The position numbers and the translations under genes were made by a program. A stretch of 64,000 bases of DNA from Tubiluchus corallicola (Eukaryota > Priapulida > Priapulimorpha > Priapulimorphida > Tubiluchidae), in the NCBI GenBank assembly GCA_030141605.1, contig JAQGDQ010000153.1:62001-126000 (forward strand). Reading direction: 5' to 3'. Of the stretch, positions 1,828 through 45,099 are shown one piece after another (the stretch's first letter is position 1; each line of letters starts with the position of its first letter). The notes under the pieces were generated by a model. That model did no database searches and was not told the origin of the DNA. It was given only the letters and a program-made list of their open reading frames with translations.

Positions 1828-1928
1828 TTAGCTATCTGATTCGGCTTGACTATCAGACTCTGTCTGCAGATTAGCCTTTTCTTCTAAATTTGCTTTGGCT
1901 TTCCTCAGTACTTTGTGAGTTTTTGATA
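1828..1928 (-). CDS. CDK5RAP2: CDK5RAP2-like terminal exon 33 (residues 5111-5143) and stop
   Basis: Basic helix KTHKVLRKAKANLEEK, then an acidic Ser-rich tail (ESDSQAESDS) and a TAA stop. The pyrimidine-rich tttttttcag acceptor and the correct phase fix the frame. Confidence 0.85.
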
Positions 1929-4900
1929 CTGAAAAAAAGAACAAGCATTGATAATTTTCACGTTGAGCAAATTATAACTTAAATATTACATTGGTCAAAA
2001 ACTTTTTGATGAAAGTTAGACGAATACCTACAAATAAAACTAAATAAAGTTCAAAGTTGATATACTGTACAATATAATAAGTTATATATTTGCAAGATTT
2101 AAGGTGCAAAGATGGAAATATAAGCTATAATCCACTTACACTGAGGCCTGTTACAACGAGCCTCTAGTTAACACATACAGGTTGTGTTACATACAGCAGC
2201 AAAATTAAAAAAAAACATCAATTCTTAGGCGAAATAAAATATTTAAACCTTACTTACAGCAATATGACGTGATTCTGCTCATTACAAGGGAATTTTACAC
2301 CTCATTATTATACTTCTCTTGCATATAATAAGCGCGAGTTCTAGAACAATGGGCACACCATTCACCAAGGGCAAAAAGATCACCCTTGGAGATGAAACAA
2401 TGTGTATCAAGTACAACAGTGGTGGCTCTGCAGCTACTTGTGCTGCTGTAATTATAACTTACAGTCAGAATGAAGCGAGCACAAAAAAGGAAATGATGCA
2501 GTTGAAGCCATTGCTAAACTTTAGCAATTTTTTGTGTCATCGTCAGCAACTCATGCCTTTCAAAATTTGACAGCTAACTGAATAAAGCTGTAGTACAATT
2601 TCATGTAAAGCAGGCAAAAATAACCGTTTTTCAAAAAGAAAACTGCTTTGCTTTGCAAAATAAATAAATCTATGACTTCACATTAATTAACACACAGGCT
2701 AGTCAGACTGTCTACTTAGCTATGAGATGATGTATGTAGGACCGTAGGTTAATGTAAGCCCATGGTAAAATGTGTATAATCATAACTTATACTGTGCCTG
2801 CACAGCTACTTAAATAGCCATGTGCTGGCTATTGGCTGTGACATTGCTATAACAAGACTCGGTCATAGCGAGCAGTTTGGTGGTCCCTTGAAACTCGTTA
2901 GAAGTGCATTATCAGTAAACTTACTATTTAACCTTTATCCGATCAGTTTAGTAATTTTGTTCAGCAAAAAATGTTTGAAAACTAGTCTTTTAAATTTCAA
3001 AAGCATCTGCTCTTACTCCCCATGTTTAATTTTCTTTAAATTTTACTATGATACTACCTGGCCAAACCAAGCATATCAACAAGTTAAGAAGCAATTTGCA
3101 ATACAGTATTGGTATTGAAATTTCAAAATAAATTATGGTTGCACAGCTTTGCTCCCTTGAAAACGATTTAACATCATTACACTTCGAGTTGATTACACGA
3201 TTTAAACTCTAGTCATTCGTTATTAATCGTGTCATTTTACTGCATTAATTGGTGTGATTAGATAATTCTGTACAAAAACACAGCACGTTTTTCTATTAAC
3301 TGTTTTATCAATGAGATCGTATTTTTATCGTACTTTTAGATACAATACTTGAAATTTTTGAAACCAAGTGTTATGGAAGTTTCTAAAATGTGCTCTTCCA
3401 AGAATAAAAAATTCTTGAAAAAGATCAATTATTCCACATACTTACATTGTTTGACAATTGCCTTTTCCATCCCTACTTTGACTTTACTATGAGCCTGTAA
3501 CAAAAAGCAACAGCTTTATTTTCAATAACTGTACATAGCATGATGCCAGTCCAATGCTGAATAGAGAATGTATTATAGCAACAGCAGCAGATAAACAGAA
3601 ACTGGTAAATGATATTGAGTTGAATGTCACATAACACCCTGTTACAATTCAGATAAGTCAATATGGCAGACATGCGCATTTTACTGATTTGTGTCTTTTA
3701 ACAGAAGTGGACTAATTTAGCGATTATGTTATAAAAAAGTATTTTGGGCAAATAGTTTTTAGGGTATTATTAAATAAAACACAACTACACAAATTTACGT
3801 TAATTACATTAAAAGCACTTTTAGTTCAAGCAAAAATACTGATGAAACAGAAAGGAGTTCTTAACTGTCATAAAACTGTATGACGATGAACCTCGATAAA
3901 TACTAAGAAAAGTCTAAAAAATAAGACGGAAAACTAAACATACGTGAATAATAAGAAATTTATAAAATTTGCAACAGTCTTTGGCTAATTACCTCGAGCT
4001 TGTTTAGTGCATTGCTGAGTAGTGCATCCCGTGACTGCAACCGTTTGTTCATCTTTTCCATCATTTTACGCAGTGCACAATTCTGAAACAAAGTATTTTA
4101 AATTTTCGTTTCATTGCCAAAACAGTTATCAATATCTGCAGTTTACTTAGAAAATTTATTATATTTATTTATTTATATATTAATAAATTTTATCATGGGC
4201 TAAAGTTCCAAGACTAATCACTGATATGTGCACTTCTGTCCAACATGAAACAGCAGCAGATAAATGTAACAGTATGCTAGCGAAATACCTTAATTAAAAT
4301 TGCCAAACAAATCTTCAGAAAAATCACTGACTGCTATGTGTCAACATTCGTGCATGTTTTAAAACATTAACAAACTCCTCGTAAGCTTGAAAAAAGAGAT
4401 GAATAAATTTACTGGGCACAGAGGGATCGAATCAAGTGTAAAGGGTACATTGAGATCAAATAAGTGCAGGAAATTATAAAAAGTGTTTACATTGCCTTTT
4501 TATTTGTTTTAGTGGCATTAATAGTGTTATCCTAAAATAGAACAAGATTTCTGTACTTCTTCTACTAGAAGCCTATTGTGAATTGTCTCAACATCGCCAT
4601 CCCGAGTTGGCAGCTCTGACGTCCAAAACAGTCTAATCAAACGATAACATTCAGAAAGGTAGGTATGAACCTGGGTGGCACTGGTTAATACAGCTTGGAG
4701 AGTAGCATACTCAGCTCCCTGGAAAACAAACAGACAATCTAAACAATGTAGTTTCCCCTATATGTGCATATATACAATCTCAGGCCATAAAAGTGTTATA
4801 ATGCATGTTTGCTAATAAATTTTTGCATTTACGTTTTTTATACAGGACTGTAACACCTGAAGAACGAGATCTGACGAAAACGACTTCCAGAGCTCTACGA

Positions 4901-7900
4901 GAACAATCAGCTACAATTTGGCATTATTACGGATATTATACAGAAACAATTTAGAAACTTACATTTTCTTGTTAGCCAATAAAGCTATTTACAGCAGTAG
5001 TTTTTAAAGCCAAAACAGCTATAATTATCAAAGATGCTGGCAATAAATGGTAAATAAAACTTTTGCATACCCGAGAACCAGTATCACTTGACTTGAGATG
5101 TTCTTTCACTCTTGTTTCAATGCCAGTAATTATGGATTTGCATTCCGCTATCTCCCGAGTGAGTAGTTCATAGTCGTCTATCCGTCCTACGCTGTACAAC
5201 ATCCTGTGTTCTGTGTTCACGGTTATACCTGTGCCATCTACAGCAATACAACAATGACAGGTATGTGGTACATTACAGGGGAAACAGCAGATTTATATTT
5301 TTGATTGTAAACTGCACTCAAAATATTTATTCTTATCGTTTGAAAGCTAATTTAACTTACAGTTATTAGTAAATTATTGTGCTTGCAGTAGTATAAATAC
5401 AGTAACAGTAAACTAATTTTAATGTTACACAGACATTTTACTGTTTAGGATAAGAAGTTTAACTCTTTAACTATGGAAGGCGGCAGACTGCCGCCTATGC
5501 TTTTCATGTAAGGGACGGAAGGTGGTACACTGCCTAACGAGTTCAGCACTAAGCACAGTCGCTCAGGTATGTTTATTGTACTGCTACAGCCATGCAAAAA
5601 CATTGTAGAAAAGTGTAACGAACGTGGAATTGGGGTTGCTTCGCAACAAGTAATGCTAACCAGCCAATCAGTGTCTGAAGCCAGGTGCATTCCACAATAC
5701 TATACTGTGATGAGTACGTTTTCACACAAAATCACTTCGTGACGGTTGGTGAAAGCTATGTTTAGTCGCTTGTTCTGCATTTGTTATAAAATGATTGCAT
5801 CATATGGATTAGTATTATGACTTTTGTGAAAATTGTTTCTAAATATAAGTATGTGCTACTCTGTGTGAGTGTGCACGTGTGTGGGTGCGGACGTGAGTGC
5901 ATGCATGAGAGCGTATATGTGTACAAATAAAACGAATATTTAATATTAGCATTTACTAACAAACGAGTACCTGCATTATTTACAAGATTGTGTTTTAGTA
6001 ACGCATCACAAGAAGTTATTGTCAAATGATCAAAACGTAATACGGCCCAGTTAAAAAGCAACGAGGTAGTGAAAGGGTTAATGGAGTTAAATTGAGCTTG
6101 CTGTAAAGTTTATCAAAGTAAGTACAATACTACAGCGACACGCTTCTGAACATCAATAAGCTTTCCCAGTTCACCTTCACTACACACAAGAATCCCAACT
6201 GAAATATCACAGCATGCCTAGAATAGAACCATTACTTTTCCATAAAATTCCTCCCTGTTACTGTGCGAACAATAAAAAAATTAATGAGAAGTACAGCAAA
6301 CACGGTTTTATCTAATTTTATTATAAAATTTGCATATTGACAAGAAAGCGAATGGACAAGAACTCATTTGTATTTCACATTCTATACAAAAAACAGTGTG
6401 TCACAACATCCTTAGAAGCAACTTCATGCAAAAAATGTGCATCAAAATTTCATCACGGCTATTTCATTACAATGGGCGGACAAGCACAGTAGCACCAGAA
6501 AAAAGGAAGCGTAAATTTTCTGTAAATTTTGAGCCCAAATAAAGTGAGAAATGAAAAATATGCTTCATTTTATGGTTTAGCCATCATGAATAAGCGAAAA
6601 CCACAAACAATAGAGCAGATATTACCAATCAAACTAACTAACACTATTACCAATGCAAAAACATAAAAAATAAGTAAATTCACAAATGTAATATGAAAAT
6701 AGGCTTCAAAATCTCCGAAAGTCAAAAACGCTTTTGCCACTAGAGTTCTAAGTGGCAAATTAGATACTGAGCCTATATTATAATATTATTAGTATATCTC
6801 AGTTTTCAAATGAAATACATGTTACTGTCGTGCACTAATCAAATGTTTACAGAAAAAAGGTCTCACCAAAATAAACTCGACTGACATCATCCAGGCTCAT
6901 CGCACGACGGGAAGATGATAGTGCAGAGAATGAGTGAAGTGGATCCGATTCATCCAAAAGCGATTGGAGGTGAAGATTTGGCAGTCGCATTTCTGCCCCT
7001 GCACTTCCTTTTGAAATATGTCTGAGAAAAAACAGTATGAATGATAACACCTCCATGCATGTAAATTGCACAGACAAAATACAGTAAAGCCTTGCTTAAC
7101 AATTCACCAGAACAATTTACCATTTGTATTAACAAGGACAAAATTTTACTACATTTTTTTGTCTCCCCACTCATTTCAAGGAGGACAATTTCTATGTTTG
7201 ATATTTAACTTAGAAATTTCATAACAGAGTTTCAGTATTCATAAAATAATTCACTGAACCGTAGAGGTAAACAAGGGATTCAAATGAGACTCTGCCACTT
7301 GTGAATGTGTTTTATCCGGAGCAACTAGGAAATAATAGTTAAGCACAACAGCGAGTTCACTGCGGCACGTAACCTTATAATTGGTTACACAGATATATGA
7401 AGTAATAGGTGGCAGCACTAGTAAAAAATCACTGAAGCTTGCCACATTGCTAAGATTTTATTTCAAAAGGCAAAACATCGCATACACTCTACTGTGCAAA
7501 ATAATGAACAAATTTAGGACATGTAGGACACACGAGAGACAACAACATGTTATTTGGAGAATTCAGGTAAGAAGGTCTTACTAGAACGAGCCATAAATAA
7601 TTTTGAAATGACAGGTCACACAAATGTAGACATTAAATCTGTACATACTATAAGCACACAACATCATTTCTAATCATTATAAAAAGCTTGAAATTTGACT
7701 CTTATTTAACGGTTTGTAAACAACTATACTGTTGCTTATAAAAAGAAAAAATGACGAAAGCACTTGTGTTCTTCTCTCATACAAACCTTTCCCGCTCAAT
7801 ATCACTAGGAACATCATTATGACCGACACCGACACCACTGCTACTCCGTGGCAAGCTAGCACTCCGCTGGTGAAAACCAGTCAACGACACTCGATCCTGG

Positions 7901-10900
7901 AATCTTCCCTCATGACCAGCACTGTTCGATTCGAAAGAATTAACCTCCCGCCGGAATAAAGGAGAAGCATTACGCCATCCCGCTTTGCGATCACTCTTCT
8001 TTTGCATGTCCATATTATTGTTGTTCGCATTCTCTTTGTCTACAGTTGTACACTGGATGCCAGTCTCGCGAAGTATAAGCCGGTCTGGCTGTTTTTGGCT
8101 AGAATGTGGCACCAACATGCTTTGAAGTGAAGCCAATTCTCGGTCACGATCTGAGCGTGACTGAACTTGAGTTGAAGCTTCCCGTGATGAAATCTAAACA
8201 TAAAATAGGTAAAAATTAAAAGTGTTATAGAATTATCAAGATTGACTGTAAAAATAATAAGGAAAAACCATTTTGCTGCATATGCATCTTTGCTGGGTGG
8301 TCATTGGAAACAAACTATTTAGCATTTAGCAACGTGTAAAAAACACCATTTTGCACATTTTGGATTACATTTCAAAGCTTTCAGAAAGCCAGGTTTTTCT
8401 GATATACACTTTTCCGTCTCAAATGAGCTCAGCTAGCTAACCCTGCTGAAAACAGTCATCCATGCTCAAAATCTAAGGGAAACTTGACGATAATTGTGAA
8501 AAATCCACCTTCTGTGATCCATTTAAGCTCAAATTCAAAATAATTTATTGATTTATCATGTGTCATAATAAATAACCTTAGTTCAAAGTCATAACAATGG
8601 TGTTAAACTCTAGCACTATTATACTTGCACAAGTAAAAAAGTGTGCAACTCAAATGCAATTTGTAAAAGGTTGGTAAATTGGATACCTCAAATTTGCATT
8701 TTGTCATACAGTGCCACTCATACAGATGAGGTAATTCAATCGAACTCCTCCCCATCTACCACCCAGTGTGGGTTTCACTTACCTGCTGCTTAAACCTTAG
8801 AAGGAATATAATGTCAAATCATAAAAAATTGATCTCTGACTTTGATCAGTACTTTTCAAGTCACTGATTAACCTAGACTACTAGAATCAACTGACCAGTT
8901 GAACAAATGTGGGCTACTAACACCTCACAGTATCGCAGTTACTTAAATGACAAATTGTGCAGGAAAAACATAACTCATCTAAAAGCAGCAATATTTCCCA
9001 TACAATGACAGATGCTAATAGCGAAGATGAAATATTTATTATCTATTTCACGATTTTGCGGCCATTATCACTTAATGAGCAATATACTAAAAAGACAATC
9101 ACATAAAATCATTTTTAAATCAATAAATGTCCTTGGAAAAAAATGTACAACATAAGGCAATTTAAAAAAAATACCTTTACCACCGGCATAGCAGGTGATA
9201 CCACCTGGTTGCCAAACTTGGTAACTTGTTCCTGCAATACACTTCGCAAAGTATTGTTGTTTTCAATGCTGCCCTCTAATTGCTCTCTTAAGCAACGAAT
9301 CTCTCCAAGTAACTGCAAAAGCTCTTTTGCATCAATAGCATTTCCTTCCGGTTGCTTGGTAGCTACAAGCAAAAAAGTTATCAGAGATCAGGACATATTA
9401 TATATACTTAATTAGCTTTGAAAACAATACCTCAGTGCTCAGCAATTGTCAGTAAATGTATAGTCAAACATCTTACAAATTAGCTGCAGAGCAAGTAAAA
9501 AGTTTTGCCGCTAAATCCACATTTATGAAATATTTTTTACAAATTTTCTCACTCTTGGACAAAATGTAAATGGCATGCAAACATAAGACAGTAGAAATAT
9601 CACCGTATTCCCAAATATCGTTTTGAACATCTTGAAAAACTTGAACGTTTCGACACTTCCAGAATATGCTACATTTTCCATGTTCTCATCATTAATAAAC
9701 TTTCTCTTACATTACTCCCCCTAGATTGTTAGTTGGTTGCTACTGAAAAGCTCCATTTTACTAGCCTATAAATCTTTAGAGAAATATAAGCCAAAAGACC
9801 ATTGTTTTATTATCTTTAACATGCAAAATGGATGAAATTCGTCTGCAAATTTAAGTTTAGAAATTAACTGTTGAGCAAATATAAAAACTAATAACGTTGC
9901 CAGTGTCACAGTTAACTGTGATCTATGGAACGTTATCCAATCCGAATTCATAACTCAATACGATATGTGTACTCAAGAAGGGAAAGCACTTTCATCAAGT
10001 ACACCACTAAACTAATTAAATCTGAATCTGCACTGTAGCCAAAATTACATTAATCAAATAGAAGGGACAACCAGTTCATCCTGCCTCAAGTAGATATAAA
10101 AATAGTTTTACATCATCAACCGCAGCTCTGTTTAACAACGGGCACTTTGGTACATTGTAAAGTTTTGATTGATTTTTAAGTGTTCAGTATTTTAGGTTAA
10201 GAATGTATAATGCCTATTGTTTTTATGTGCCAGGCTTAAGTCTTATTGCAATTACATGTGACTGTACATTGTATACTCTTAAGTGACAATAACATGCAAA
10301 ATTTACAAATCAACACTAATAATGAATTAACTAATATAGACCAATGGATACAAACAAACTTATTATCAGTAAATTATAGAAAAAACTAAATTCATGTTGT
10401 TCAGCCCTACAAAACACAAGCCAAAACTTCAATAATAATACCATAGATGAAATGGATTATATAAAATATTTAGGCTTATATATTGATGCAAATCTGACAT
10501 GGAAAACACACATAGGTGTAATAAATAGCAAAATAAATAAATGCATTGGAATATTTTACAAATTACGACACTATGTAGACACAAAATTGTTAAAAACTGT
10601 ATACTATGCACTGATTTACCCATACATCCAGTATTGTATTATATCATGGGGTACGGCTAAACAAACAATTTTGAAACCATTAGCAGTCACAGTAAACAAA
10701 ATAATCAAAGCAATAACCTTTACAAAATACAGAGACTATGTAACACCATCATATCATGTACTACGCATTCTAAAACTGCAGGATATATACAAATTAGAAC
10801 TGTTAAAGTTTATGTATAAAGCTAACTATAATATGCTACCAGACCTCTTTCACAGTTATTTTAGTAAAATCAGCAACCACCATGACTACAACACTAGAGC

Positions 10901-31005: not shown

Positions 31006-31045
<40 letters not shown>

Positions 31046-34000: not shown

Positions 34001-37000
34001 CATGAACTTTTTGATTTAGTTCTTTGATATCTTCTTCTTGTTGCATTATTTTGGCTTCACTTTCTAAAAGCTTGTTCTGCAACTGTTTGTAAGTCTTGTC
34101 CCTCTCACTTAGAACCTCTTGTAATTCCTGTAAAAAATGTTTTAGTTTTTTAATATACTAATTGATCCCGTGGCTAGAATTATCAACACCAAAAAATTAA
34201 TTACTTATATATAATCTGAAAATCAAGATTAATGGTTAATAAGAGGAAGAGACCCACAATTTTAAGCATCAAATTTGACTAAACGGAAAGAAATGCAAAA
34301 AAGTTGAGATTGAATCTGGATTCCATCAGTAACCAATAAAAACTGAGTTACAAGAACAGAATTAAAACCAGTTTTGAGCATTTGCTTCATTAACTACTCG
34401 CACAGACAAAATTACAGAAGAATTAATTTCATCAGTTTAATACTTAATAATTACATTTGTGTGAACGAATTAACACTTAGAAATTTAATGCTAAATTTGC
34501 TGGTGGACTAAAGCGAGAATCTATCATAGATAGATCGAACTCATTCCTAAGGCTCTACAGTTGAATCACGCTTGTGTTGATATGATTCATGATTAGCATA
34601 AGCACAGGTCACACACCAGCATGGCCAGTTAGTTCAGTTGATTAGAGTGTGGTGCTAATGATTCTAGGTCTCATTCTACAAATGGATCCAATTGGGATTC
34701 GACTATTAAGGCCTAGGCTATCTTGATCACAACGAGCAGTGCAGTATAATAGTCAACTAGTCATGGCAAGGTACTTGTAATCCAAGTGTTCCTGATTCAA
34801 ATCCAACATAAATAATTAATAATTTTAGTCCTTTAAAAGTCATAAAACTGTCATTTAAACGAGGAATTCCTTTAAACAAATTCAATAATTTGACACCCTA
34901 ACAAAATATTTTATCAATGTAAGAATGAATTAATGCGAAAAGCATTGACTTAATTTAGTTGAGAGCTGTGTTATTTGCAACAGCAAAATAATGACATCCA
35001 TAAAAACTAAACAAACACCAGATAAATATGCTAAAATCATCCATCACTGCACTTAAAATAATTACCAAAGAAATATCTTTGAAGACTTACTTACCTGGAA
35101 ATCTGCATACAAACTCTCATGATCTAATTTCAGCTTGTGCAGTGCATCATCCCTTTGTTTTACTGCTCGATAAAGACCCTCAATAGCCTCATCTTTTTCC
35201 TGCAACATCTTTCCCATTTCAACTTCTTTATCTGCTGCATCTTGGAAAGTGTTTTCATAGTCTGCTAGGTACAGTTTCATCTCCTCTAGAGCTTTGTCTT
35301 TGTCACTAATAATACGATGCAACTCCATAATTGTGTTTTTATTGTTTGACATCTCATCAAAAGGAGACAATTCCAACGAAGAGGTCATTACTGTAACATC
35401 TCGATTGGCTGGTCTATCACCTGCTCCCTACGAAATGTTAAGACAATTTTTACTTTTTAACACATTGGTCATTGGAAAGTGAATTAATGTCCTCTTCAAA
35501 AAATATTTTACAAGACTATCCTAAACCCTATTTAATCATATTCAGCTACTATTGATTAAAACACGTCACTCCTAAATTATAGTTGTTTGCAATATTTACA
35601 CACGCACACACGCATGCATGTAACTTGCTTTTTTTCTTATTTTGTGATAACAGTATTTAACTGTTCTGTAATCACCGATTATTAGTTGCTCTTATCTATA
35701 GCAAATTTACTACAGATAAGTAGCAAAGCTACTTACTATATATATATGTGTGTGTGTGTATATATATATATAGTATAAAAATATTTACTGTTAATAACAT
35801 ACATTGTTACTTTATAACATTTGTTATGTTATCAAAAGATCTCAGTCTTTGTTCAGAGCTTAAGGTATTTTAACATAGACTTTAAAAAAGTAGCTAATTT
35901 CTTCATTAAGAGACTTTTTTCAATTTATATTCATAGTTTTTTGCATTTAATTAATATCTTTACCATCATAAAACATTTACGCTTAGGAACAGTCTGGCAC
36001 ATATGCACATTAGTCAAATGCTTATACGAAAATCTCTTTGAAGTACATAACTACATGTAAAAAGCGATCACATTTATACACGAGCCAAACTGAATTTAAC
36101 TTATTTAAATTCCTTGATATACAAAGCCAAATTTGAAACTACATTAGCAAAACCAGGACTTCTAAACATGTAAGAACAGTATAATGAGATGAGCTACCTG
36201 TATCTTGTTGTTCTCTAACTGTTTTTCTAACTTTTGGTTTTCACATTTCAACAATCTAAGCTCTTCTCTCGTTGAGGCTAGTGCGTTGTTGCTGTCATCT
36301 AGGTCCTGTCCATAATAAATAAATTAGCATGGATGTACTGACAACAAATAAAAAAATTACAAGAATTACTAGACAGACAATGAACTAGAGCAAAATCTAG
36401 AGAAAAGGCATTACAAAGACAAACTGACACAATAACCTTGATATGCTGACAGCATACATTGTTGCCAATTATACAAATCCTTTATAGCAGGGTACTCTCC
36501 ACTTAAATCATTAGGAGGGCACTACGTTTTAATCACTGAGATATCGTATTTAGCGGGACACCAATCAGAAAGCATTTTTGCTCAAAGGAAGTAACATATT
36601 AGACTGGCCACAAAAAGCGTCCATCTGACAGGTAAAGCTAGCCGAACCTGAACCCTGCAGAACAATGTAGTTCCACTCATACTCCAGGTTTTATTATGAG
36701 AGTTCTTTTAGCAGATAAAAGTATGTTCGACCAACTCTTTGGAGGCGCATGTTATGTAGCACGATGTGACACTTTTCAATGCTATCACTTTTCAAAAAAG
36801 GTTAATTCTTTCACTGCTACAATGTAGTTTTCAAACTACTTAGAACTTAATACAAAACAAGTGCAAAACCTTACAATACACTTTATTTATTTTGAAATTT
36901 AGCTACAACTATTTTATAACTATAGCTCAATTTTTGTTATTAACATGTTAGGATTTTTGTTAACACTACTCAACTGTATAAAACTCGAAGAAGTTTTCTG

Positions 37001-40000
37001 CCTTTGATTAAGGCCATTTCAAGTCGAGATAAGACGTCAATCAATAATGGCCATTTTCGTGTATTCTGCATATTTTTAATGTATTCATTAATGCCAGAGT
37101 CATTTAACAAGTGGATGCTGAAGATGCCGAGGTTGACAGGCAAAAATGCCAAAGATGAAATGAATCTCGATATAATAAGAGACCAGTTGCATTTGATGTA
37201 TATTAGTCTTTACTACAAAGACATGTTAAATGTTACGGGGATTATAATTATGCAAAAGTATTTTAAAAAATTCAGCATTTTTCGAAAATACTCTACCTTT
37301 TCAAGTTGTTTAATCCTAGTTTCCAGATGGGATAATTGCAGCTTTGTCTCGGGCTCCAACTGTTCTTGCAATTTAGCAACACTGTCTTTATGCTGATTTT
37401 CCAAAGACTCTAATGCATAACTGGAAAATGTCAACAAAAAAGATAAGACTGCTACAGTATTAACAAAGTAACATATTTTGAGTTCTTTTGCTAACAACCC
37501 CCAGCAGCTATCATACAAGAACAGGCATCACAAGTATACGATGCCATACAGCATGTAGTTTGGTCAAATTGCTGTACATGGTACTTTATGACCAAGAAAT
37601 TGGTAAAACTCTAATAAGCTAGCTGCCACAAACATAAGAAGAAGGCATATATTTCATAATTTACTTCATTTTCTTTTTTTATTTAAAGCAGCATGAACAA
37701 TTGCACAATTTTTTTTGTAAATGTCTTATTGGTAAAATAATCAGAAATTCAGACTATACTGCATAGGTATTGCACATGCACCCAATTTTAGTAATGTAAT
37801 ATAAAAAATGTACAAAAGATGAAAATTTATTCAACCAGACCAAAGTCAGTTACAAAATGCATTCTTCAGCCAACAGCCTTGATAAAGCTGTTACAGCCTA
37901 CACTTCTTCATTAACAGTAGTTTAAGTGTTTGTCTTAGCTACATTTTTCAATAATAAATACTAATGGTAAAGCAAAAATTACTAAAGCAAATTACTTGTC
38001 CAGTTTTAAAGAAATTTGATAAATACCAAGTTGTTGAATCCTTTACTGCTTCTCAATAAATTTAAACGTCATACACTGACCTACAATATTTGTACACTAC
38101 ACTCATAGGATTTAAGTGAAGCTTAAACTGTCAGTAAGAAAATACAAAGAAAAAAGTAACTAGGACAATTTTGAAACAAAGTTAACTGAAAATTATAAAA
38201 TATAAAAAATATACTTAAAATTAAGTTTCAATTTTTAGAAACAGCTGACATTTTATGCAAGTACGTGGTTATTGCAGCTAATACATATTATGTTACTCAC
38301 TTTGCCTTTTTTAACAGCTCCTGCTTTTCATCCAAGCTCTCCTTCAAACTCTCCACCTGAATGTTTAGATCAATATTCTGAAATGCAAAAGCAGAGAGCA
38401 TTTAACATGCACCAGTCTCATTCAGTCATATGAAGAATAAATCAAATTAATGAATGTTGTCAATTATACAGTTGAAACTTAAAGTGCAACAATAATTACA
38501 CACTTTTCAGCTATAACTAATTAATACAGACCACTTCTTTGAAACTTTTGGGTTTTAATTACGATACATTTTAGCCAAATTTCAGAATGTTTGTTTATAT
38601 TTATGGAGACTTCATTTTATCAAATAAATAGTGCAGCTTAAATAAGAATAAAAACAAAATGCATTATTTGCATGCGATGATAAGTTACTCCGTAAGTTAC
38701 AGGTCTTATAAAATTTGAAAGAAAACAATAAAACTATGATAAAAATCAGTAAATTCTTAACTTGGTCTTACTAATCACAGTTATCAAACACTAAGGAGCA
38801 GGTCATGTTTCAGTAAAGGTAAAACCAAAGCAGACTGCAAAATGAAAAAACAAAATCTAAAATTGTATTTATAATCAAGAATAACCCATGCGTGAATACT
38901 TTACAACCAAATCTTGCTTACCGCTTTAAATACTTGTTCCTTGTCAATGGGCACCAAGTCACGCATTTGCTTTTCCATAAAAAATATTCGCAGCTTCAGG
39001 TTAAAATTTTCATGTTTTAAATTCAAGATTTGCTAAACAAAAATAAGAAAAATTGATAACAAACAGATTAAAAAAAAACCATCAAAACAGTTCACTCAAA
39101 AGAGTACTTAAGAATGAAATTTGGTCAACAAATGAGGTGTTAAGTTGAGGACAAAAAGCAAAAGCTTAAGTTAAGAACTGAAATGCTAATGTCTAATAAA
39201 AAGAATTAAATGCACCAAATTGCGATGTGTTTGTCTAGTTGCTATCCTTTTTGTTCACACTGCTTTTATTTATATTCTTGACTTCATAAAAGAATAAATG
39301 AAATGGAAGAATTTAAATTCAACGATATTTATGATATTTTTTCTGCAGTTGAGACAAGATGACTCTTTTTGTTATTTCAAAAAACTATCAAAAGTGTAAA
39401 AGCCGACAAGAAAAACTAATGTATCTATAAAATATAGTAAATACAATGCGTGCACATAATAGCATGCAATATACTACAGATAGTAAGTTAACACTCAAAG
39501 ACCACGTCATATAACTATGAGAAAAATCCGTTAACCTTAGTACAAATAGAAGTATTTACCTGTTCATACTCTTTCATAGTTCTAGGCATCTGCGGAGATA
39601 AGAAAGGCAAGTTTTTTGGTTGAACATCTAAAAAGATAAAATAAATTTACGATTCAGCCCAAAAACATAGATCTTATAAAAATAAACAATTTTAGTATGA
39701 TAAAAAACTTAACTACTGAAGAATACAGATTACACAAGTTTTGTTAATGCAGTTTCAAACACAAAATACTGTCAGCCGAGCAAAGGTTTATCCCTAGAAA
39801 TGCAGTACGTGTTGTAAATACTATCATACCATACATTGGAACCAAAAATGTCACTAGCTAAACAAAGTAAAAACTGCAACTGTAGGTTTAATTATATCAT
39901 AACAGTAAACAAACGAAAATAATTACAGAAAAATATACGGTGATTTTACTTTAATTGGACGGAACATAAAATTTCCAATAAACTACTTAAGTAGGACCTC

Positions 40001-43000: not shown

Positions 43001-45099
43001 TATTTGGAATTTTGAAAAAGTTTAATTAGCCTACTAGAATTGTGCCTACTCATTCTACCTGCAGTAGTTAAGCAACCATGGTGATAAAAAGTGATTTGGT
43101 GGATGAGGTACGTTGGGGAATAATTTTTTTTAGTTGTGTCCCTTAACTATGCTTCTATTTTTGCTTTAAATACTGTAAATAATATTTCAAATTTGGAACT
43201 TAGAGCCTGAACCAGTTCCTTTTTGCAGAAGAACTAGAACTACTGCTTGAATTTTCAATAATAGACTGGGCTGTTTTTGAGTTTGGCACATTTGTTTTTC
43301 TAACATATAAACTGGATTATTATAAATTTTACAAGAGGTACTATATTTTCACATTTGTACAATAATGAGTTACGCCAAAAATTCTAAGCAATAGAACGAC
43401 AGGTTAAGCAAGTACCACAAGAATGAGTTTTGGCTAACGTAAATTTTTTAAATTTCGAGATTGCAAGATAAAAAAACGCAAGTGAAAACACTTGTATGCA
43501 ACTTGAATTGCACAATGTGTTGAAGTATCGCCATTTTTCAGTAGGGTTATTCCATGTCAAATGAATCAAGGTTTCAGTAGTGACCATCCCAGATTTGCTT
43601 CATACTTTTAAAATTACTTCTTCCATTATTATTAAAGAAAAATACGGAAAACTAGCTTAATATAATCAATACTTTTAAAGTTATAAAGTAACAAATGAAG
43701 AAAGATCGTTGACTTCTTGATGCCTTTCTTGCTTTAAAGAGTTCACCAAGTTTTTTTATCATATAATTGGTGTTAATCAATACACATAGCTAAAATAACT
43801 TACTTTTTATTTCACATCATCAAATATTTTTCGGCCAAAAACTTTTCTGGGAAACGAGTCTAACTCAGAGATCATTTATGTAGAGTAAGAAAAAAAGTGG
43901 ACCAACAGTTGAGTCTTGTGGAACACCATACTGTACATTTAGCAGTTCTGAGTTTTCATTAGTGACAGATGTATATTGTGTTCATTTGAGTTTATACGAT
44001 TGCAGTAATTGAAGAGGAAGACCTCTGATACTGTAGTGTTCAAGTTTGGCTAATAAGGCATCATGTTGTACAGTATCAAAGGCCTTCGTTAAGTTTAAAA
44101 ATATGAACGCAAGTGCATTTATTTTGATCCATATTAAGTCACAGATTATCTACAGCTTCAGCAATAGCTAAGGCTGTGTTGTATCTTTTACGAAACTGAA
44201 ATTTGGAGAGAATTTTGTTGTCATTCATAAATTTTATTAACCAGTTGTAAAGGAATTTTGCAAATATTTTGGAGATAGGTGATAGTAAAAATATTGGCCT
44301 ATAGTTAGTGGGGTTGTCAGGGGAATCACCTTTACAAATAGGAATGATTTTAGCTGCCTTTATACAATTGGGGAAGATGCCATCAATAATAACCTTATTA
44401 AACAAGTTAGTTAGAACAGGGGTAATAATGAGACTGATTAATTTGTAGAATGATGTAGGGATGTTTTCAAGTTCAGAGGCTTTACTGCAATTTAAATTAT
44501 TAAATGCTTTATTCACTTCAGCTTCAATGATGGGTGTTAAAAAGAAAGAATTTGGCGAAGCATATCCTAGAAAAGACTGATATGACACTTGTGTAGCAAA
44601 AAAATTGTTCATGACTCGACAGATATCAGTAATATCGCTTGAGAGGATGCCATCTTTGTATACTTTTTTCGATGTTATGCGTTGATGTGAGGCCCATTTT
44701 AGCAGACCTAAATGCACAACTTTACATTAACTTTGAAAAGTACTGCTCTTCTTCTCTGTTACTTTCAAGTTAGTTTTCCGTTTACGTTTGAATTTCGGAT
44801 CTTTTAATGATCTATAGCCAGATGGATTTTGATAACTGTGCAAGAAACCATACCTATTCAAAAATAGACACATTCGTTATCGGCTTTTTACCTTTGGTTC
44901 TATAATAAGGTAAGAAGTTGATAAAAAAATTCAACCGCTTAAAGTTTATGTGTGAGTAACTTACGGAATACAAGCAGAGCAACCTGTACTGTCGAGCTTA
45001 TTCAATATTATTTTAAATTTTGTATTGTAAACTATCATACCTGCTGTCAAAAGTTACAGGCAAACTCGGATCTTGCTCACTGTCACTTGTTGATTCCAT
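1828..45099 (-). CDS. CDK5RAP2: Giant centrosomin / CDK5RAP2 / myomegalin-family protein, 33 coding exons
   Basis: Seen: 33 minus-strand segments bounded by AG and GT sites join without a phase conflict into 15,432 nt (5,143 aa plus stop). Residues about 60-131 form the CM1 (Cnn_1N) motif with core ENFNLKLRIFF, including the Phe that corresponds to the gamma-tubulin-complex contact of human CDK5RAP2. The rest is mostly heptad-type coiled coil with Ser/Thr/Gln-rich linkers, ending in an acidic tail. Known: family members sit in the pericentriolar material or Golgi and recruit and activate gamma-tubulin ring complexes through CM1. Odd: the human paralogues are about 1,900 and 2,350 aa, so this protein is more than twice the usual length, and three exons (15, 20 and 23) encode roughly 73% of it. 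The start at 45099 is the first Met of the first exon. A pyrimidine-rich AG just upstream (about 45113) may be a 5'-UTR acceptor. Whether it is orthologous to CDK5RAP2, PDE4DIP or their common ancestor is not decided here. Confidence 0.85.
1929..3445. other. Intron 32 of the CDK5RAP2-like gene
   Basis: No exon is supported. Short plus-strand ORFs (for example 2319-2570) have no recognisable similarity. The stretch 2845-2900 (gctataacaag...catagcgag) is faintly like Tc1/mariner MITE interior sequence, but no ends are visible. Confidence 0.35.
3446..3494 (-). CDS. CDK5RAP2: CDK5RAP2-like exon 32 (residues 5095-5110)
   Basis: A 49-nt micro-exon (AHSKVKVGMEKAIVKQ) with a strong gtaagta donor. 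Its phase-1 end completes a Leu codon with exon 33. Confidence 0.78.
3993..4082 (-). CDS. CDK5RAP2: CDK5RAP2-like exon 31 (residues 5065-5094)
   Basis: Thirty codons of basic coil (LRKMMEKMNKRLQSRDALL). Phase 0 on both sides, with a tttcag acceptor and a gtaatt donor. Probably part of the C-terminal CM2-like region. Confidence 0.82.
4557..4718 (-). CDS. CDK5RAP2: CDK5RAP2-like exon 30 (residues 5011-5064)
   Basis: Encodes EYATLQAVLTSATQVHTYL and then RLIRLFWTSELP, a conserved-looking Phe-Trp segment. The donor is gtacag at 4556. Phase 0 on both sides. The frame would otherwise stop a few codons into the intron. Confidence 0.75.
5071..5237 (-). CDS. CDK5RAP2: CDK5RAP2-like exon 29 (residues 4955-5010)
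   Basis: Encodes VGRIDDYELLTREIAECKS and a following coil. An I/L-DDY helix of this kind occurs near the C-termini of family members, but I could not align it. Phase 1 in, phase 0 out. Confidence 0.8.
5238..6866. other. Intron 28 of the CDK5RAP2-like gene
   Basis: Holds the candidate TTAA-flanked element, with a GT-rich patch at about 5863-5925 inside it. The rest is featureless AT-rich sequence. Confidence 0.5.
5463..6077. mobile_element. Candidate piggyBac-like non-autonomous element in intron 28
   Basis: Both ends abut TTAA (5459-5462 and 6078-6081), the piggyBac target site. The inward termini are CTCTTTAACTATGG and, reversed, CCCTTTCACTACCT, an imperfect match whose right end has the family-typical CCCTTT start. 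A perfect 7-bp-arm hairpin (GGCGGCA-gac-TGCCGCC) sits at 5480-5496, just inside the left end. No transposase is left. The TIR is short, so chance is not excluded. Confidence 0.45.
6867..7021 (-). CDS. CDK5RAP2: CDK5RAP2-like exon 28 (residues 4903-4954)
   Basis: Encodes EMRLPNLHLQSLLDESDP and then a Ser-rich segment ending MSLDDVSRVYF. Phase 2 in, phase 1 out. Confidence 0.78.
7787..8193 (-). CDS. CDK5RAP2: CDK5RAP2-like exon 27 (residues 4768-4902)
   Basis: A polar, Ser/Arg/Asn-rich linker with a short coil at the start (RDRELASLQSMLV), an Asn run, and RSASLPRSSSGVGVG near the end. Likely disordered. Ends in phase 2 at a gtttgt donor, which is weaker than the others. Confidence 0.78.
8194..9174. 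other. Intron 26 of the CDK5RAP2-like gene
   Basis: AT-rich. I see no exon, repeat or element in it. Confidence 0.4.
9175..9362 (-). CDS. CDK5RAP2: CDK5RAP2-like exon 26 (residues 4705-4767)
   Basis: Encodes LLGEIRCLREQLEGSIENN and NTLRSVLQEQ, the second copy of the motif seen in exon 21. Phase 1 in, phase 0 out. Confidence 0.87.
10283..11085 (+). pseudogene. Non-LTR retrotransposon relic, reverse-transcriptase C-terminal part (intron 25)
   Basis: The stretch 10452-10907 encodes a C-terminal RT segment of the jockey/CR1/RTE kind: YLGLYIDANLTWKTHI, then YYALIYPYIQYCIISWG, then HDYNTRAA. Fragments continue in shifted frames upstream (DQWIQTNLLSVNY and KTKFMLFSP, about 10283-10440) and downstream (TIQQTGTKLWNTFSPEI up to the stop at 11085). 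At least two frameshifts and in-frame stops make it dead. It is 5'-truncated, missing the endonuclease and the RT catalytic core, and is antisense to the host gene. Sequence up to about 11910 may be its 3' UTR, since aataaag occurs near 11906. Confidence 0.8.
12291..12424 (-). CDS. CDK5RAP2: CDK5RAP2-like exon 25 (residues 4660-4704)
   Basis: Coil LQAELNEVKELTKSMKMEL followed by SMYEKLEK. Similar in pattern and phase to the end of exon 20, so the exon 20-21 and 25-26 pairs look duplicated. Phase 2 in, phase 1 out. Confidence 0.85.
12745..12792 (+). repeat. tRNA-derived SINE head (intron 24)
   Basis: Contains TGGCGCAGTGG, a perfect Pol III A-box (TGGCNNAGTGG), followed by TTAGCA and a decayed B-box (GGTTGAGC). 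No flanking duplication was found. The body after the head is not recognised. Confidence 0.55.
13392..13559 (-). CDS. CDK5RAP2: CDK5RAP2-like exon 24 (residues 4604-4659)
   Basis: Basic coiled coil (REKYKKLKDEFVSVRKRNK). Phase 2 on both sides. The frame continues into the intron without heptads. Confidence 0.82.
14100..14160 (+). repeat. Short tandem duplication
   Basis: The motif CAAAGTACACAACA occurs twice, about 28 bp apart, followed by similar short words. A local replication slip in intron 23. Confidence 0.6.
14437..16514 (-). CDS. CDK5RAP2: CDK5RAP2-like exon 23 (residues 3912-4603)
   Basis: A 2,078-nt exon of almost continuous coiled coil, broken by Ser-Pro linkers carrying repeated RPISPRKK / RPTSPGKK-type basic SP motifs and by a polar linker near residue 4420. 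The SP motifs look like proline-directed kinase sites (inference). Ends in phase 2 at a gtatga donor. Confidence 0.87.
16515..17244. other. Intron 22 of the CDK5RAP2-like gene
   Basis: AT-rich. Two short ORFs lack any recognisable similarity. No element seen. Confidence 0.4.
17245..17414 (-). CDS. CDK5RAP2: CDK5RAP2-like exon 22 (residues 3855-3911)
   Basis: A Ser/Val-rich start, then coil (LDILEQLKVESEARLADLE). Phase 1 in, phase 0 out. Confidence 0.8.
17736..17882 (-). CDS. CDK5RAP2: CDK5RAP2-like exon 21 (residues 3806-3854)
   Basis: Encodes LSEIRVLQHRLQESIANND followed by QLREQLEQQ. This pattern (LxEIRxLxxxLxxSIxxNxxLRxxLxxQ) is typical of CDK5RAP2 and myomegalin and recurs in exon 26. 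Phase 1 on both sides. Confidence 0.87.
18211..19520 (-). CDS. CDK5RAP2: CDK5RAP2-like exon 20 (residues 3369-3805)
   Basis: Opens with a short coil (LLSRQSQMISKLQDILKQ), then about 330 residues of Ser/Pro/Asp-rich sequence, probably disordered. It closes with the coil LKKKLKEAELMNKSLRVEL, which resembles the end of exon 25. Ends in phase 1. Confidence 0.85.
19804..19938 (-). CDS. CDK5RAP2: CDK5RAP2-like exon 19 (residues 3324-3368)
   Basis: Coiled coil (QLTLKLQELLNENQQQ). Phase 2 on both sides. Confidence 0.8.
20420..20534 (-). CDS. CDK5RAP2: CDK5RAP2-like exon 18 (residues 3286-3323)
   Basis: Ser/Arg-rich linker with an Ala-Asp triple repeat (ADADAD) and SRRSPKGRER at its end. Probably disordered and phosphorylatable. 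Phase 1 in, phase 2 out. Confidence 0.75.
20862..21034 (-). CDS. CDK5RAP2: CDK5RAP2-like exon 17 (residues 3228-3285)
   Basis: Amphipathic helix LTEQLQELGEFLEELL, followed by EALQELRSRVYNSINASQQ. It resembles helices before the central family coil, but I could not align it. Phase 2 in, phase 1 out. Confidence 0.8.
21181..21253. mobile_element. One end of a hAT-type MITE (intron 16)
   Basis: Read on the minus strand, CTAGTGATGGGCGATTAAT is followed by AT-rich repeats of the ATTAATCGA kind. This is the usual look of hAT MITE termini with a GATGGGCGATTAA start. The opposite end and the target duplication were not found, so it is a fragment or decayed. Confidence 0.4.
21299..21318. repeat. (GTTAAA)3 tandem repeat
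   Basis: Three consecutive hexamers in intron 16. A second short tandem repeat (ggaaat)n lies at about 21618-21643. Confidence 0.8.
21782..21903 (-). CDS. CDK5RAP2: CDK5RAP2-like exon 16 (residues 3188-3227)
   Basis: Begins LVSAGGKSQHDFEMLQIEI and continues as coil with Trp/Met/Cys. Phase 0 in, phase 2 out, with a gtatgt donor. Confidence 0.8.
21904..22883. other. Intron 15 of the CDK5RAP2-like gene
   Basis: Follows the giant exon. The open frame of exon 15 reads into it as far as 22767 but without coiled-coil periodicity. Otherwise AT-rich and featureless. Confidence 0.45.
22884..30708 (-). CDS. CDK5RAP2: CDK5RAP2-like exon 15, giant 7.8-kb exon (residues 579-3187)
   Basis: A single open stretch of 2,608 codons. 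Seen: alternating coiled coil and Ser/Thr-rich linkers, many degenerate units of the form ELxxExxxLRxxLxxSL (five in a row at about 27870-28275), and polar low-complexity linkers in the last third. The open frame runs on to 22767, but a ctg|gtaaat-type donor at 22883 gives phase 0 and joins exon 16. The antisense ORFs in this block are shadows. I recognise no enzymatic domain. Known: vertebrate family members have no exon of comparable size that I recall. Inference: this is a lineage-specific expansion of the central coil. Confidence 0.9.
31009..31044. repeat. (TA)n microsatellite
   Basis: About 18 TA units in intron 14, about 20 bp from the exon 14 donor. Likely length-polymorphic. Confidence 0.95.
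31065..31245 (-). CDS. CDK5RAP2: CDK5RAP2-like exon 14 (residues 519-578)
   Basis: Arg/Ser-rich then acidic linker (ETRRSRSSSRTD, ATSEDDGESD), likely disordered. The donor lies about 20 bp from a (TA)n tract in the following intron. Confidence 0.78.
31524..31676 (-). CDS. CDK5RAP2: CDK5RAP2-like exon 13 (residues 468-518)
   Basis: Strong coiled coil (VQLLEEKVHKLQHALEDAQ) followed by a Lys-rich end. Phase 1 on both sides. Confidence 0.82.
32178..32266 (-). CDS. CDK5RAP2: CDK5RAP2-like exon 12 (residues 438-467)
   Basis: Ser- and acid-rich linker (DMEVEALPSPSAESS) without heptads. Phase 2 in, phase 1 out. Confidence 0.72.
32540..32640 (-). CDS. CDK5RAP2: CDK5RAP2-like exon 11 (residues 405-437)
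   Basis: Encodes HLRLLVGKFGDSSSDKG and then a polar stretch. The acceptor AG is at 32641-32642, and the phase-2 donor matches exon 12. Confidence 0.75.
32901..32993 (-). CDS. CDK5RAP2: CDK5RAP2-like exon 10 (residues 374-404)
   Basis: Thirty-one codons of coil (LDDREQRICALEVQLQQLQ) between a tttag acceptor and a gtaatt donor. Phase 0 on both sides. Confidence 0.78.
33431..33471. repeat. 20-bp direct duplication
   Basis: CAAACCGTTAGTAAACTCC is followed at once by CAAACCGTTAGTGAACTCC. A tandem pair with one mismatch, in intron 9. Confidence 0.7.
33969..34127 (-). CDS. CDK5RAP2: CDK5RAP2-like exon 9 (residues 321-373)
   Basis: Coiled coil (ELQEVLSERDKTYKQLQNK). Ends in phase 0 before a gtaagc donor. 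The open frame continues into the intron but loses the heptad pattern there, which supports the splice. Confidence 0.82.
34623..34690 (+). repeat. tRNA-Ile-derived SINE head or tRNA pseudogene (intron 8)
   Basis: The 5' half GGCCAGTTAGTTCAGTTGAT, then TAGAGTGTGGTGCTAAT, matches eukaryotic tRNA-Ile(AAU) apart from a few C-to-T and G-to-A changes of the kind left by CpG decay. It includes the A-box and the AAT anticodon loop. The 3' half is diverged: no clean TPsiC arm and no acceptor pairing. It cannot be a functional tRNA. A second tRNA-like word (GATTCAAATCC) lies at about 34795. Confidence 0.6.
35095..35427 (-). CDS. CDK5RAP2: CDK5RAP2-like exon 8 (residues 210-320)
   Basis: A short Ser/Asp-rich start, then a long coil with repeated DKDKALEEM / EKDEAIEGL / QRDDALHKL units. 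This type of segment also follows CM1 in vertebrate CDK5RAP2. Phase 0 on both sides. Confidence 0.83.
35737..35774. repeat. (TA)n(TG)n(TA)n compound microsatellite
   Basis: TA units flank a (TG)n core in intron 7, making a near-palindromic purine-pyrimidine tract. A short CA-rich patch lies nearby at 35599-35620. Confidence 0.9.
36198..36305 (-). CDS. CDK5RAP2: CDK5RAP2-like exon 7 (residues 174-209)
   Basis: Thirty-six codons of coiled coil rich in Leu, Lys and Glu (REELRLLKCENQKLEKQLE). Phase 0 on both sides, so skipping it would keep the frame. Confidence 0.82.
36306..37296. other. Intron 6 of the CDK5RAP2-like gene
   Basis: A plus-strand open frame at 37004-37396 is mainly intronic, overlaps exon 6 antisense and shows no known motif, so I do not call it a gene. 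A CAGGG...CCCTG pair (36488, 36656) has no matching target duplication. Confidence 0.4.
37297..37420 (-). CDS. CDK5RAP2: CDK5RAP2-like exon 6 (residues 132-173)
   Basis: Continuous coiled-coil heptads (for example ALESLENQHKDSVAKLQEQ). Phase 2 in, phase 0 out. This is an extension of the N-terminal coil. Confidence 0.82.
38301..38377 (-). CDS. CDK5RAP2: CDK5RAP2-like exon 5, end of CM1 (residues 107-131)
   Basis: Encodes NIDLNIQVESLKESLDEK, matching the family pattern NIELKVEVESLKREL that follows the CM1 core. Ends in phase 2 at a gtgagt donor. Confidence 0.9.
38922..39032 (-). CDS. CDK5RAP2: CDK5RAP2-like exon 4, CM1 core (residues 70-106)
   Basis: Thirty-seven codons hold the family signature HENFNLKLRIFFMEKQM. 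This is the diagnostic Cnn_1N segment, conserved from fly centrosomin to human CDK5RAP2 and myomegalin, and it contacts gamma-tubulin complexes. All signature positions that I know to be critical are present. Confidence 0.93.
39560..39627 (-). CDS. CDK5RAP2: CDK5RAP2-like exon 3, start of CM1 (residues 47-69)
   Basis: Encodes a Pro-rich linker and then PRTMKEYEQ, which corresponds to the first helix turn of the CM1 motif (MKDFENQ-type in vertebrates). It ends in phase 0 and joins exon 4 in the middle of the motif. Confidence 0.85.
39628..41396. other. Intron 2 of the CDK5RAP2-like gene
   Basis: AT-rich with a short (TG)n tract at about 40587-40600 and a repeated AAGTACATGTTGCT at about 41178-41231 (the two copies about 40 bp apart). 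No exon or element recognised. Confidence 0.4.
41397..41476 (-). CDS. CDK5RAP2: CDK5RAP2-like exon 2 (residues 20-46)
   Basis: Encodes a Ser/Thr/Asp-rich stretch (VFGEITLSTEEDSD). The phases match exons 1 and 3, with an AG acceptor and a gtaag donor. The segment is low in hydrophobics and probably disordered ahead of CM1. Confidence 0.75.
41769..41826 (+). repeat. Possible tRNA-derived SINE remnant (intron 1)
   Basis: CTGGTGGTTAAAA followed about 40 bp later by AAGGTTCAACATTGC resembles an A-box and B-box at the usual spacing. Both are degenerate. Weak call. Confidence 0.25.
42167..42232. repeat. 42-bp partial tandem duplication
   Basis: GTACAACTACTAATGAATGC occurs twice with a 42-bp period, and the second copy is cut short. 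In intron 1 of the CDK5RAP2-like gene. Confidence 0.85.
42782..42944. mobile_element. Tc1/mariner-type MITE, 163 bp (intron 1)
   Basis: Ends CAGTCAAACCTCTTTATA and, reversed, CAGTCAAACCTCGTTATA match at 17 of 18 positions and are flanked by TA on both sides (42780-42781 and 42945-42946), the mariner-superfamily target site. There is no coding capacity. The CAGTCAAACCTC terminus is common among Tc1/mariner MITEs. Confidence 0.85.
43845..44717 (-). pseudogene. Non-LTR retrotransposon relic, reverse-transcriptase N-terminal and core part (intron 1)
   Basis: Minus-strand reading gives KIIPICKGDSPDNPTNYRPI and LLSPISKIFAKFLYNWLI, the classic LINE RT boxes. Box A follows as YFLNLTKAFDTVQHD, in which the first catalytic Asp position is Asn. 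Then come YGVPQDSTVGPL and a broken LYINDL. An in-frame TGA and at least one frameshift are present. It is sense to the host gene and lies in its largest intron. The endonuclease and the YADD region were not found. Confidence 0.85.
45041..45099 (-). CDS. CDK5RAP2: CDK5RAP2-like exon 1 (residues 1-19)
   Basis: Starts at Met and encodes an acidic Ser-rich leader (MESTSDSEQDPSLPVTFDS). It ends in phase 2 before a gtatgatag donor. The alternative is that an earlier start lies on an upstream exon, because an acceptor-like site is present 13 nt before the ATG. Confidence 0.65.

Follow-up and report, generated by a model that had tools for sequence, protein, structure and literature searches.

Described members of the CDK5RAP2/centrosomin family differ in length: myomegalin (PDE4DIP), a vertebrate paralogue within the CM1 family, has about 2,346 residues, and Drosophila centrosomin (Cnn) about 1,150-1,300. 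Human CDK5RAP2 (CEP215), of 1,893 residues in its PDB chain, carries an N-terminal CM1, two late coil blocks and a C-terminal CM2. Its residue F75 is reported to be particularly important for association with gamma-TuRCs, and the purified protein is described as forming micron-scale assemblies with crowding agents or anti-CM2 IgM; protein without CM2 is reported not to assemble with this IgM, whose binding needs CM2 (PMC12273628). Human CDK5RAP2 is also reported to have a proven motif for the dynein light chain LC8, of the K/R-x-T-Q-T type, which the same source gives as absent from Drosophila Cnn (PMC3714271). The Dictyostelium CDK5RAP2 (Cep161), described as a CM1 scaffold protein of the centrosome corona, is about 161 kDa and hence far shorter than the protein considered here (PMC5946109).

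The locus described here encodes a predicted protein with the same blocks in the same order as human CDK5RAP2, but 2.7 times longer. It lies on the minus strand of a 64-kb stretch of DNA (the window; C2308:62001-126000). Very probably it is a single 33-exon gene and the CDK5RAP2/centrosomin gene of this genome, in which no other was found; one giant exon supplies most of the added length, and the protein would act through a mechanism typical of the family.

Gene model and genomic setting

The gene was delimited with a gene finder, edits of splice sites and strand and shuffle controls:

1828-45099, minus strand: whole gene for a CDK5RAP2/centrosomin-type scaffold, 33 coding exons, 5,143 aa

The model runs from an ATG at 45099 to a stop codon ending at 1828, with 15,432 nt of coding sequence and 27,840 nt of introns in total; all 32 introns are GT..AG, a condition imposed by the gene-finding program. 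This program, written by the authors, chains exons by dynamic programming and was initially trained on the three longest minus-strand reading frames. When the start was left free, the gene ended at 1828 under all three penalty settings; it began at 45099 under the strictest and farther upstream, at 57257 and 63168, under the other two, in which the longer chains score slightly higher. The 5' end is the least certain part of the model. Additional upstream exons called at the middle setting (57257-57201 and 54648-54566) were rejected: adding them raises the score by just some 7 units, and the first coincides in part with a plus-strand frame that matches the MRG domain. A further run with low intron penalties and self-trained splice sites drifted to 353 exons and was discarded.

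With the start forced to 45099, the exon counts under four settings were 32, 33, 34 and 40 and the proteins had 5,043-5,085 aa, the middle setting yielding 33 exons and 5,046 aa. The donors of exons 28, 29 and 30 seemed truncated and were shifted by eye to follow open frames, which produced exactly 5,143 aa; this target was known before the edits, and agreement with the length in an earlier, sequence-only reading of the locus is therefore not blind. The hand-edited exons are nevertheless supported by a match to human CDK5RAP2 at E 1.3e-12. Phase-compatible joining of exons is weak evidence, being enforced by any such program, and the strand and shuffle control weighs more: the minus strand of the window scores 1261.5 against 30.4 for the plus strand, 16.6 and 25.0 for the two reversed strands and 7.0-15.2 in all five block shuffles. 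Chaining with the edited donors, together with these controls, bears out the 33 exons without a phase break and the 5,143 residues of the sequence-only reading.

Plus-strand genes appear to flank the locus on both sides. Beyond its 5' end, a divergent neighbour at 49531-57353 of the window, which we take to be MRG15/MORF4L1-like, includes a frame at 57162-57353 that matches the MRG domain (PF05712, E 1.5e-8) and, near 49.6 kb, a weak chromodomain-like match (E 0.04). Beyond the 3' end, three frames with WD40_2 matches (E 2.1e-22, 3.8e-7 and 5.2e-9; C2308:55.5-59.5 kb) form a convergent neighbour (positions 3485-7523 within C2308:52001-62000), perhaps a RhoGEF-type gene, the last frame of which ends at C2308:59.5 kb, roughly 4.3 kb past the stop codon of the scaffold gene.

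Conserved blocks from CM1 to CM2

The protein was compared with Pfam in pieces (exons 1-14, 15, 16-22, 23 and 24-33) and with PDB chains over exons 6-14, 15 and 23 and the CM1, late and CM2 regions, exon 27 (aa 4768-4903) lying outside the latter comparison. The matched blocks and the region between the first two of them are as follows:

38922-39627, minus strand: exons 3-4, CM1 core, aa 47-106, with F79 in place of human F75 (profile and PDB-chain alignment)
38301-38377, minus strand: exon 5, aa 107-132, remainder of the CM1 profile match except its last few residues (profile and PDB-chain alignment)
31065-37420, minus strand: exons 6-14 with introns, N-terminal coil region, aa 132-579 (gene model)
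18211-19520, minus strand: exon 20, aa 3369-3806, Ser-rich by eye, then the onset of the first CC_CDK5RAP2-like block (gene model, Pfam)
17736-17882, minus strand: exon 21, first late coil motif, aa 3811-3856 matching human CDK5RAP2 1392-1434 (Pfam, PDB chains)
9175-13559, minus strand: exons 24-26 with introns, second late coil motif, aa 4608-4757 matching human CDK5RAP2 1476-1629 (Pfam, PDB chains)
1828-7021, minus strand: exons 28-33 with introns, CM2 end (gene model, PDB chains, genome search)

An intact CM1 motif at the N-terminus, as claimed earlier, is confirmed by the Cnn_1N profile (PF07989), which matches exons 1-14 at E 4.1e-18 (65.8 bits against a cut-off of 28.5) over profile positions 1-73 of 74. 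In the PDB-chain search, aa 56-151 align with human CDK5RAP2 52-147 (E 8.2e-19), bringing F79 onto human F75. The coil region that follows gave no convincing PDB-chain match (aa 151-577, exons 6-14).

The late coil motifs were also part of the sequence-only reading, which had them recur late in the protein; they align with the appropriate parts of human CDK5RAP2 but are weak by Pfam. The first block matches human 1392-1434 at E 0.0011, in a PDB-chain search with a shorter query; the matches listed up to E 1 included no CDK5RAP2 chain when exons 16-22 were submitted as a single long query. The second matches human 1476-1629 at E 9.4e-5 and 2.2e-4 in two full-length chains. The same two blocks are the two places matched by CC_CDK5RAP2 (PF23246), at E 0.0008 and 0.014 and at 20 and 16 bits, below the curated cut-off of 27. 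Since the PDB-chain search also yields a weak alignment of the first block to the second human block, recurrence of these motifs appears to be a family trait.

A CM2 end, which the earlier reading did not see, is recognizable by sequence at the extreme C-terminus: aa 4968-5128, from the last six exons, match human CDK5RAP2 1725-1877 of 1893 at the E-value of 1.3e-12 given above, and aa 5076-5127 match the Drosophila Cnn chain 5i7c (E 0.0038). The four matched blocks follow one another as they do in the human protein. With CM1, the recurring family coil motifs and CM2, the whole 5,143-residue model reads as a single CDK5RAP2/centrosomin-family member, and the assignment to the centrosomin family made earlier is strengthened by the CM2 end and the block order. 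Likeness to Drosophila Cnn consists of the CM1 profile and CM2; apart from CM2, there was no Cnn match in the PDB searches. The Olduvai domain, in which myomegalin differs from this protein, was not matched by Pfam in exons 1-14, 16-22, 24-33 and 15 (E up to 1) or in exon 23 (E up to 0.1), and the same piecewise scans gave no match to the C-terminal PACT domain of pericentrin and AKAP9.

Source of the additional length

Two exons account for most of the additional residues:

22884-30708, minus strand: exon 15, 7,825 nt, about 2,608 aa, main source of the extra length (gene model, Pfam, PDB)
14437-16514, minus strand: exon 23, 692 aa, coil-like by eye, second source of the extra length (gene model, heptad score)

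Human CDK5RAP2 has 1,244, 41 and 95 residues between successive matched blocks, against 3,659, 751 and 210 here. The surplus is about 2,415 residues between CM1 and the first late block (the gap that holds exon 15), 710 between the late blocks (the gap that holds exon 23) and 115 before CM2, together 3,240 of the 3,250 added residues. The claim that the protein is more than twice as long as its human relatives holds, at 2.72 times the CDK5RAP2 PDB chain and about 2.2 times myomegalin; judged by length, its mass would be near 570 kDa. No CDK5RAP2 of comparable size was apparent in the literature searched, which comprised titles and abstract openings and in some cases covered 10 of 132, 8 of 13 and 8 of 236 matches.

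Exon 15 lies within one open frame of 2,648 codons. Pfam (E up to 1) gave no match to it and PDB nothing convincing, the best hits there being two bacterial regulator chains (E 0.045); exon 23 likewise has no convincing PDB match. AlphaFold2 run without an alignment on pieces of exon 15 gave no usable fold (mean pLDDT 43.4 for aa 1280-1560 and 38.6 for aa 690-960). With a crude heptad score made by the authors, which is no measure of rod length, a loose cut-off classes 32% of the protein as coil-like (0.6% in 20 shuffles) and a stricter one 5% (0% in shuffles), in eight segments of at most 48 residues each; at the stricter cut-off, the coil-like share is 2% in exon 15 and 11% in exon 23. A 30-residue helical repeat suspected by eye in exon 15 was rejected as a tandem repeat, the best ungapped self-matches (54, 48 and 46) resembling coil-to-coil pairs. 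The top score in 30 shuffles was 49, and seven pairs score at least 40, against a shuffle mean of 1.4 and maximum of 4, a weak excess of self-similarity with no clear repeat.

Candidate LC8 sites and other short motifs

The LC8 motif of human, mouse and chicken CDK5RAP2, [KR]xTQT, has no exact match across the 5,143 residues, and the protein differs from human CDK5RAP2 in offering only looser triplets. The motif does not define the wider family, given its reported absence from Drosophila Cnn. Looser forms exceed expectation: TQT occurs four times against 1.0 expected (four or more in 89 of 4000 whole-protein and 63 of 4000 local shuffles), a wider LC8 pattern 33 times against 22 expected (reached in 57 of 4000 and 44 of 4000) and [TVI]Q[TVC], a pattern picked after inspecting the sequence, 14 times against 6.7 expected (14 or more in 19 of 4000 and 36 of 4000). 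Eight of the 14 triplets are in exon 15, where 3.6 are expected (62 of 2000 shuffles), and six in the remainder, where 3.0 are expected (169 of 2000). Two of the 14, which sit within the CM1 and CM2 matches, are unlikely to be LC8 sites; many anchor-bearing peptides are reported to fail to bind LC8 (PMC6607443). Several putative LC8 sites are plausible on these counts, among them triplets centred on Q1976, Q2507, Q2851, Q2868 and Q3043 in exon 15, Q4010 in exon 23 and Q4814 in exon 27, and the genome contains an LC8-type frame (PF01221, 149 bits). The EB1-type pattern [ST]xIP gives no signal, occurring twice in the whole protein against 1.1 expected.

A decayed copy of exon 15

In the genome search, exon 15 was found intact once; the only other find was a partial, decayed copy at about 216.4-217.7 kb of contig C1568, comprising three matches of 48-59% identity, two of which carry one stop each. 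A local search widens this copy to 216.2-218.0 kb and, at 223.24 kb, finds a stretch resembling the beginning of exon 20, with order and orientation as in the gene. The latter is a 54-nt DNA match of 79.6% (E 3.6e-6), with a weak protein match (E 1.6). Because this DNA match crosses an intron border, and because order and orientation are kept, the copy looks genomic rather than a retrocopy. Comparison of exon 15 with it over 310 codons gives a dN/dS of 0.39, i.e. relatively more synonymous than replacement change, a value biased down by picking runs at protein identity of at least 40% and one in which some codons count repeatedly, three of the 10 runs overlapping on the query (aa 1361-1419). 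It is only suggestive of exon 15 being kept as protein.

Within C1568 at about 216.2-223.3 kb, a block appears by eye to be repeated inside the decayed copy, and Gypsy-like reverse-transcriptase frames, also recognized by eye, adjoin it. Two stretches of the window outside the gene, 49092-49246 and 49494-49547 (155 and 54 nt), are 100% identical to C1568 near 226.3-226.7 kb, perhaps as a recent repeat or transposon piece.

One gene or several, and one form or two

A wrongly joined model, in which two or more head-to-tail genes meet near exon 15, would gain from an early ATG in exon 15 that could open its own frame, and phase agreement by itself is no proof of continuity. Yet CM1 and CM2, at opposite ends, are halves of one family, the intervening blocks keep the human order, and no other copy of either end was found: in the 343.5-Mb genome, Cnn_1N has a single match, in this gene, and a CM2 query has four, all to this gene's own exons on C2308 and none outside, in searches that can overlook weak matches. 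That neither turned up elsewhere is strong evidence for a single gene. The introns from 3 to 24 are short (260-991 nt), including intron 14 (356 nt), at the junction named as a possible break in the sequence-only reading, and intron 15 (980 nt), which hardly allows for the end of one gene and the promoter of another; on C1568, the decayed copy preserves the order and orientation of exon-15 and exon-20 sequence. With unique CM1 and CM2, short introns and neighbours that bound the locus, a split into separate genes is, judged from sequence, unlikely, and we give it very little credence. Genome-wide searches with PF23246 and the pericentrin PACT family returned no match, but the former also missed this gene's own blocks, no control was detected in either, and these negatives carry little weight. 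Still less probable is an artefact of assembly or gene modelling, with the long frame arising from misassembly or from a transposon inside an intron. Reverse-transcriptase-like frames are visible by eye in intron 25 (10380-10907, plus strand), where Pfam finds no match, and in intron 1 (44139-44726, minus strand), where there is a weak RVT_1 match (E 0.041). Exon 15, however, lies in a single frame of 2,648 codons, was found intact once in the genome and is free of Pfam families at E up to 1, and its dN/dS against the decayed copy, albeit biased down, also speaks against such an origin.

Somewhat less improbable, though still unlikely, is that one locus makes the giant protein only as a minor or tissue-specific isoform, exons 15-16 (or 15-18, 15-19 or 14-17) often being skipped to leave about 2,350-2,500 aa, roughly the size of myomegalin, with the ordinary function carried by this short form. 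Joint skipping of exons 15-16 is in frame and leaves 2,494 aa, and when a 7.95-kb block with exon 15 is removed the remaining exons still chain (34 exons, score 672.1). Exon 15 alone, however, cannot be skipped in frame (7,825 nt, remainder 1), its splice sites look normal, and in-frame skips number seven of the 18 tried (starting at exons 13-15 and ending at exons 15-20) against six by chance. A more elaborate and rather improbable version makes exon 15 a regulated giant exon, parallel to that of neuronal ankyrin-G, which would be spliced in with exon 16 in some cell type to turn a CDK5RAP2 of about 2,500 aa into the 5,143-aa form, its many LC8 anchors pairing chains side by side into a different microtubule-organizing scaffold in this lineage. 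The preferred reading remains a single, very long member of a known family, probably ordinary in function and unusual in size.

Proposed mechanism and implications

By analogy with the family, the N-terminal CM1 helix, with F79 in place of human F75, would bind and activate gamma-tubulin ring complexes, the C-terminal CM2 end would dock the protein at centrioles and aid self-association, and the intervening coil segments would multimerize it into a pericentriolar scaffold. More speculatively, the 2.6-kilo-residue exon 15 segment might be a long spacer that separates the two ends, is mostly not a rod and doubles as a binding platform, and it might be duplexed by LC8.

The sequence-only reading guessed that so long a scaffold could span more of the pericentriolar material than its relatives. 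This is not favoured, as most of the surplus residues come from a single exon in which no domain was matched and the strong coil is short and scattered; the heptad score gives one very long rod no support. Human CDK5RAP2 already forms assemblies on the micron scale (PMC12273628), so the length of the monomer need not set the size of the scaffold.

If the full-length protein is made, it would show that the two conserved family ends accommodate some 2,400 additional residues separating CM1 from the first late coil block, and it would be a natural test of whether the size or the density of pericentriolar material is set by the length of the spacer that separates CM1 from CM2.
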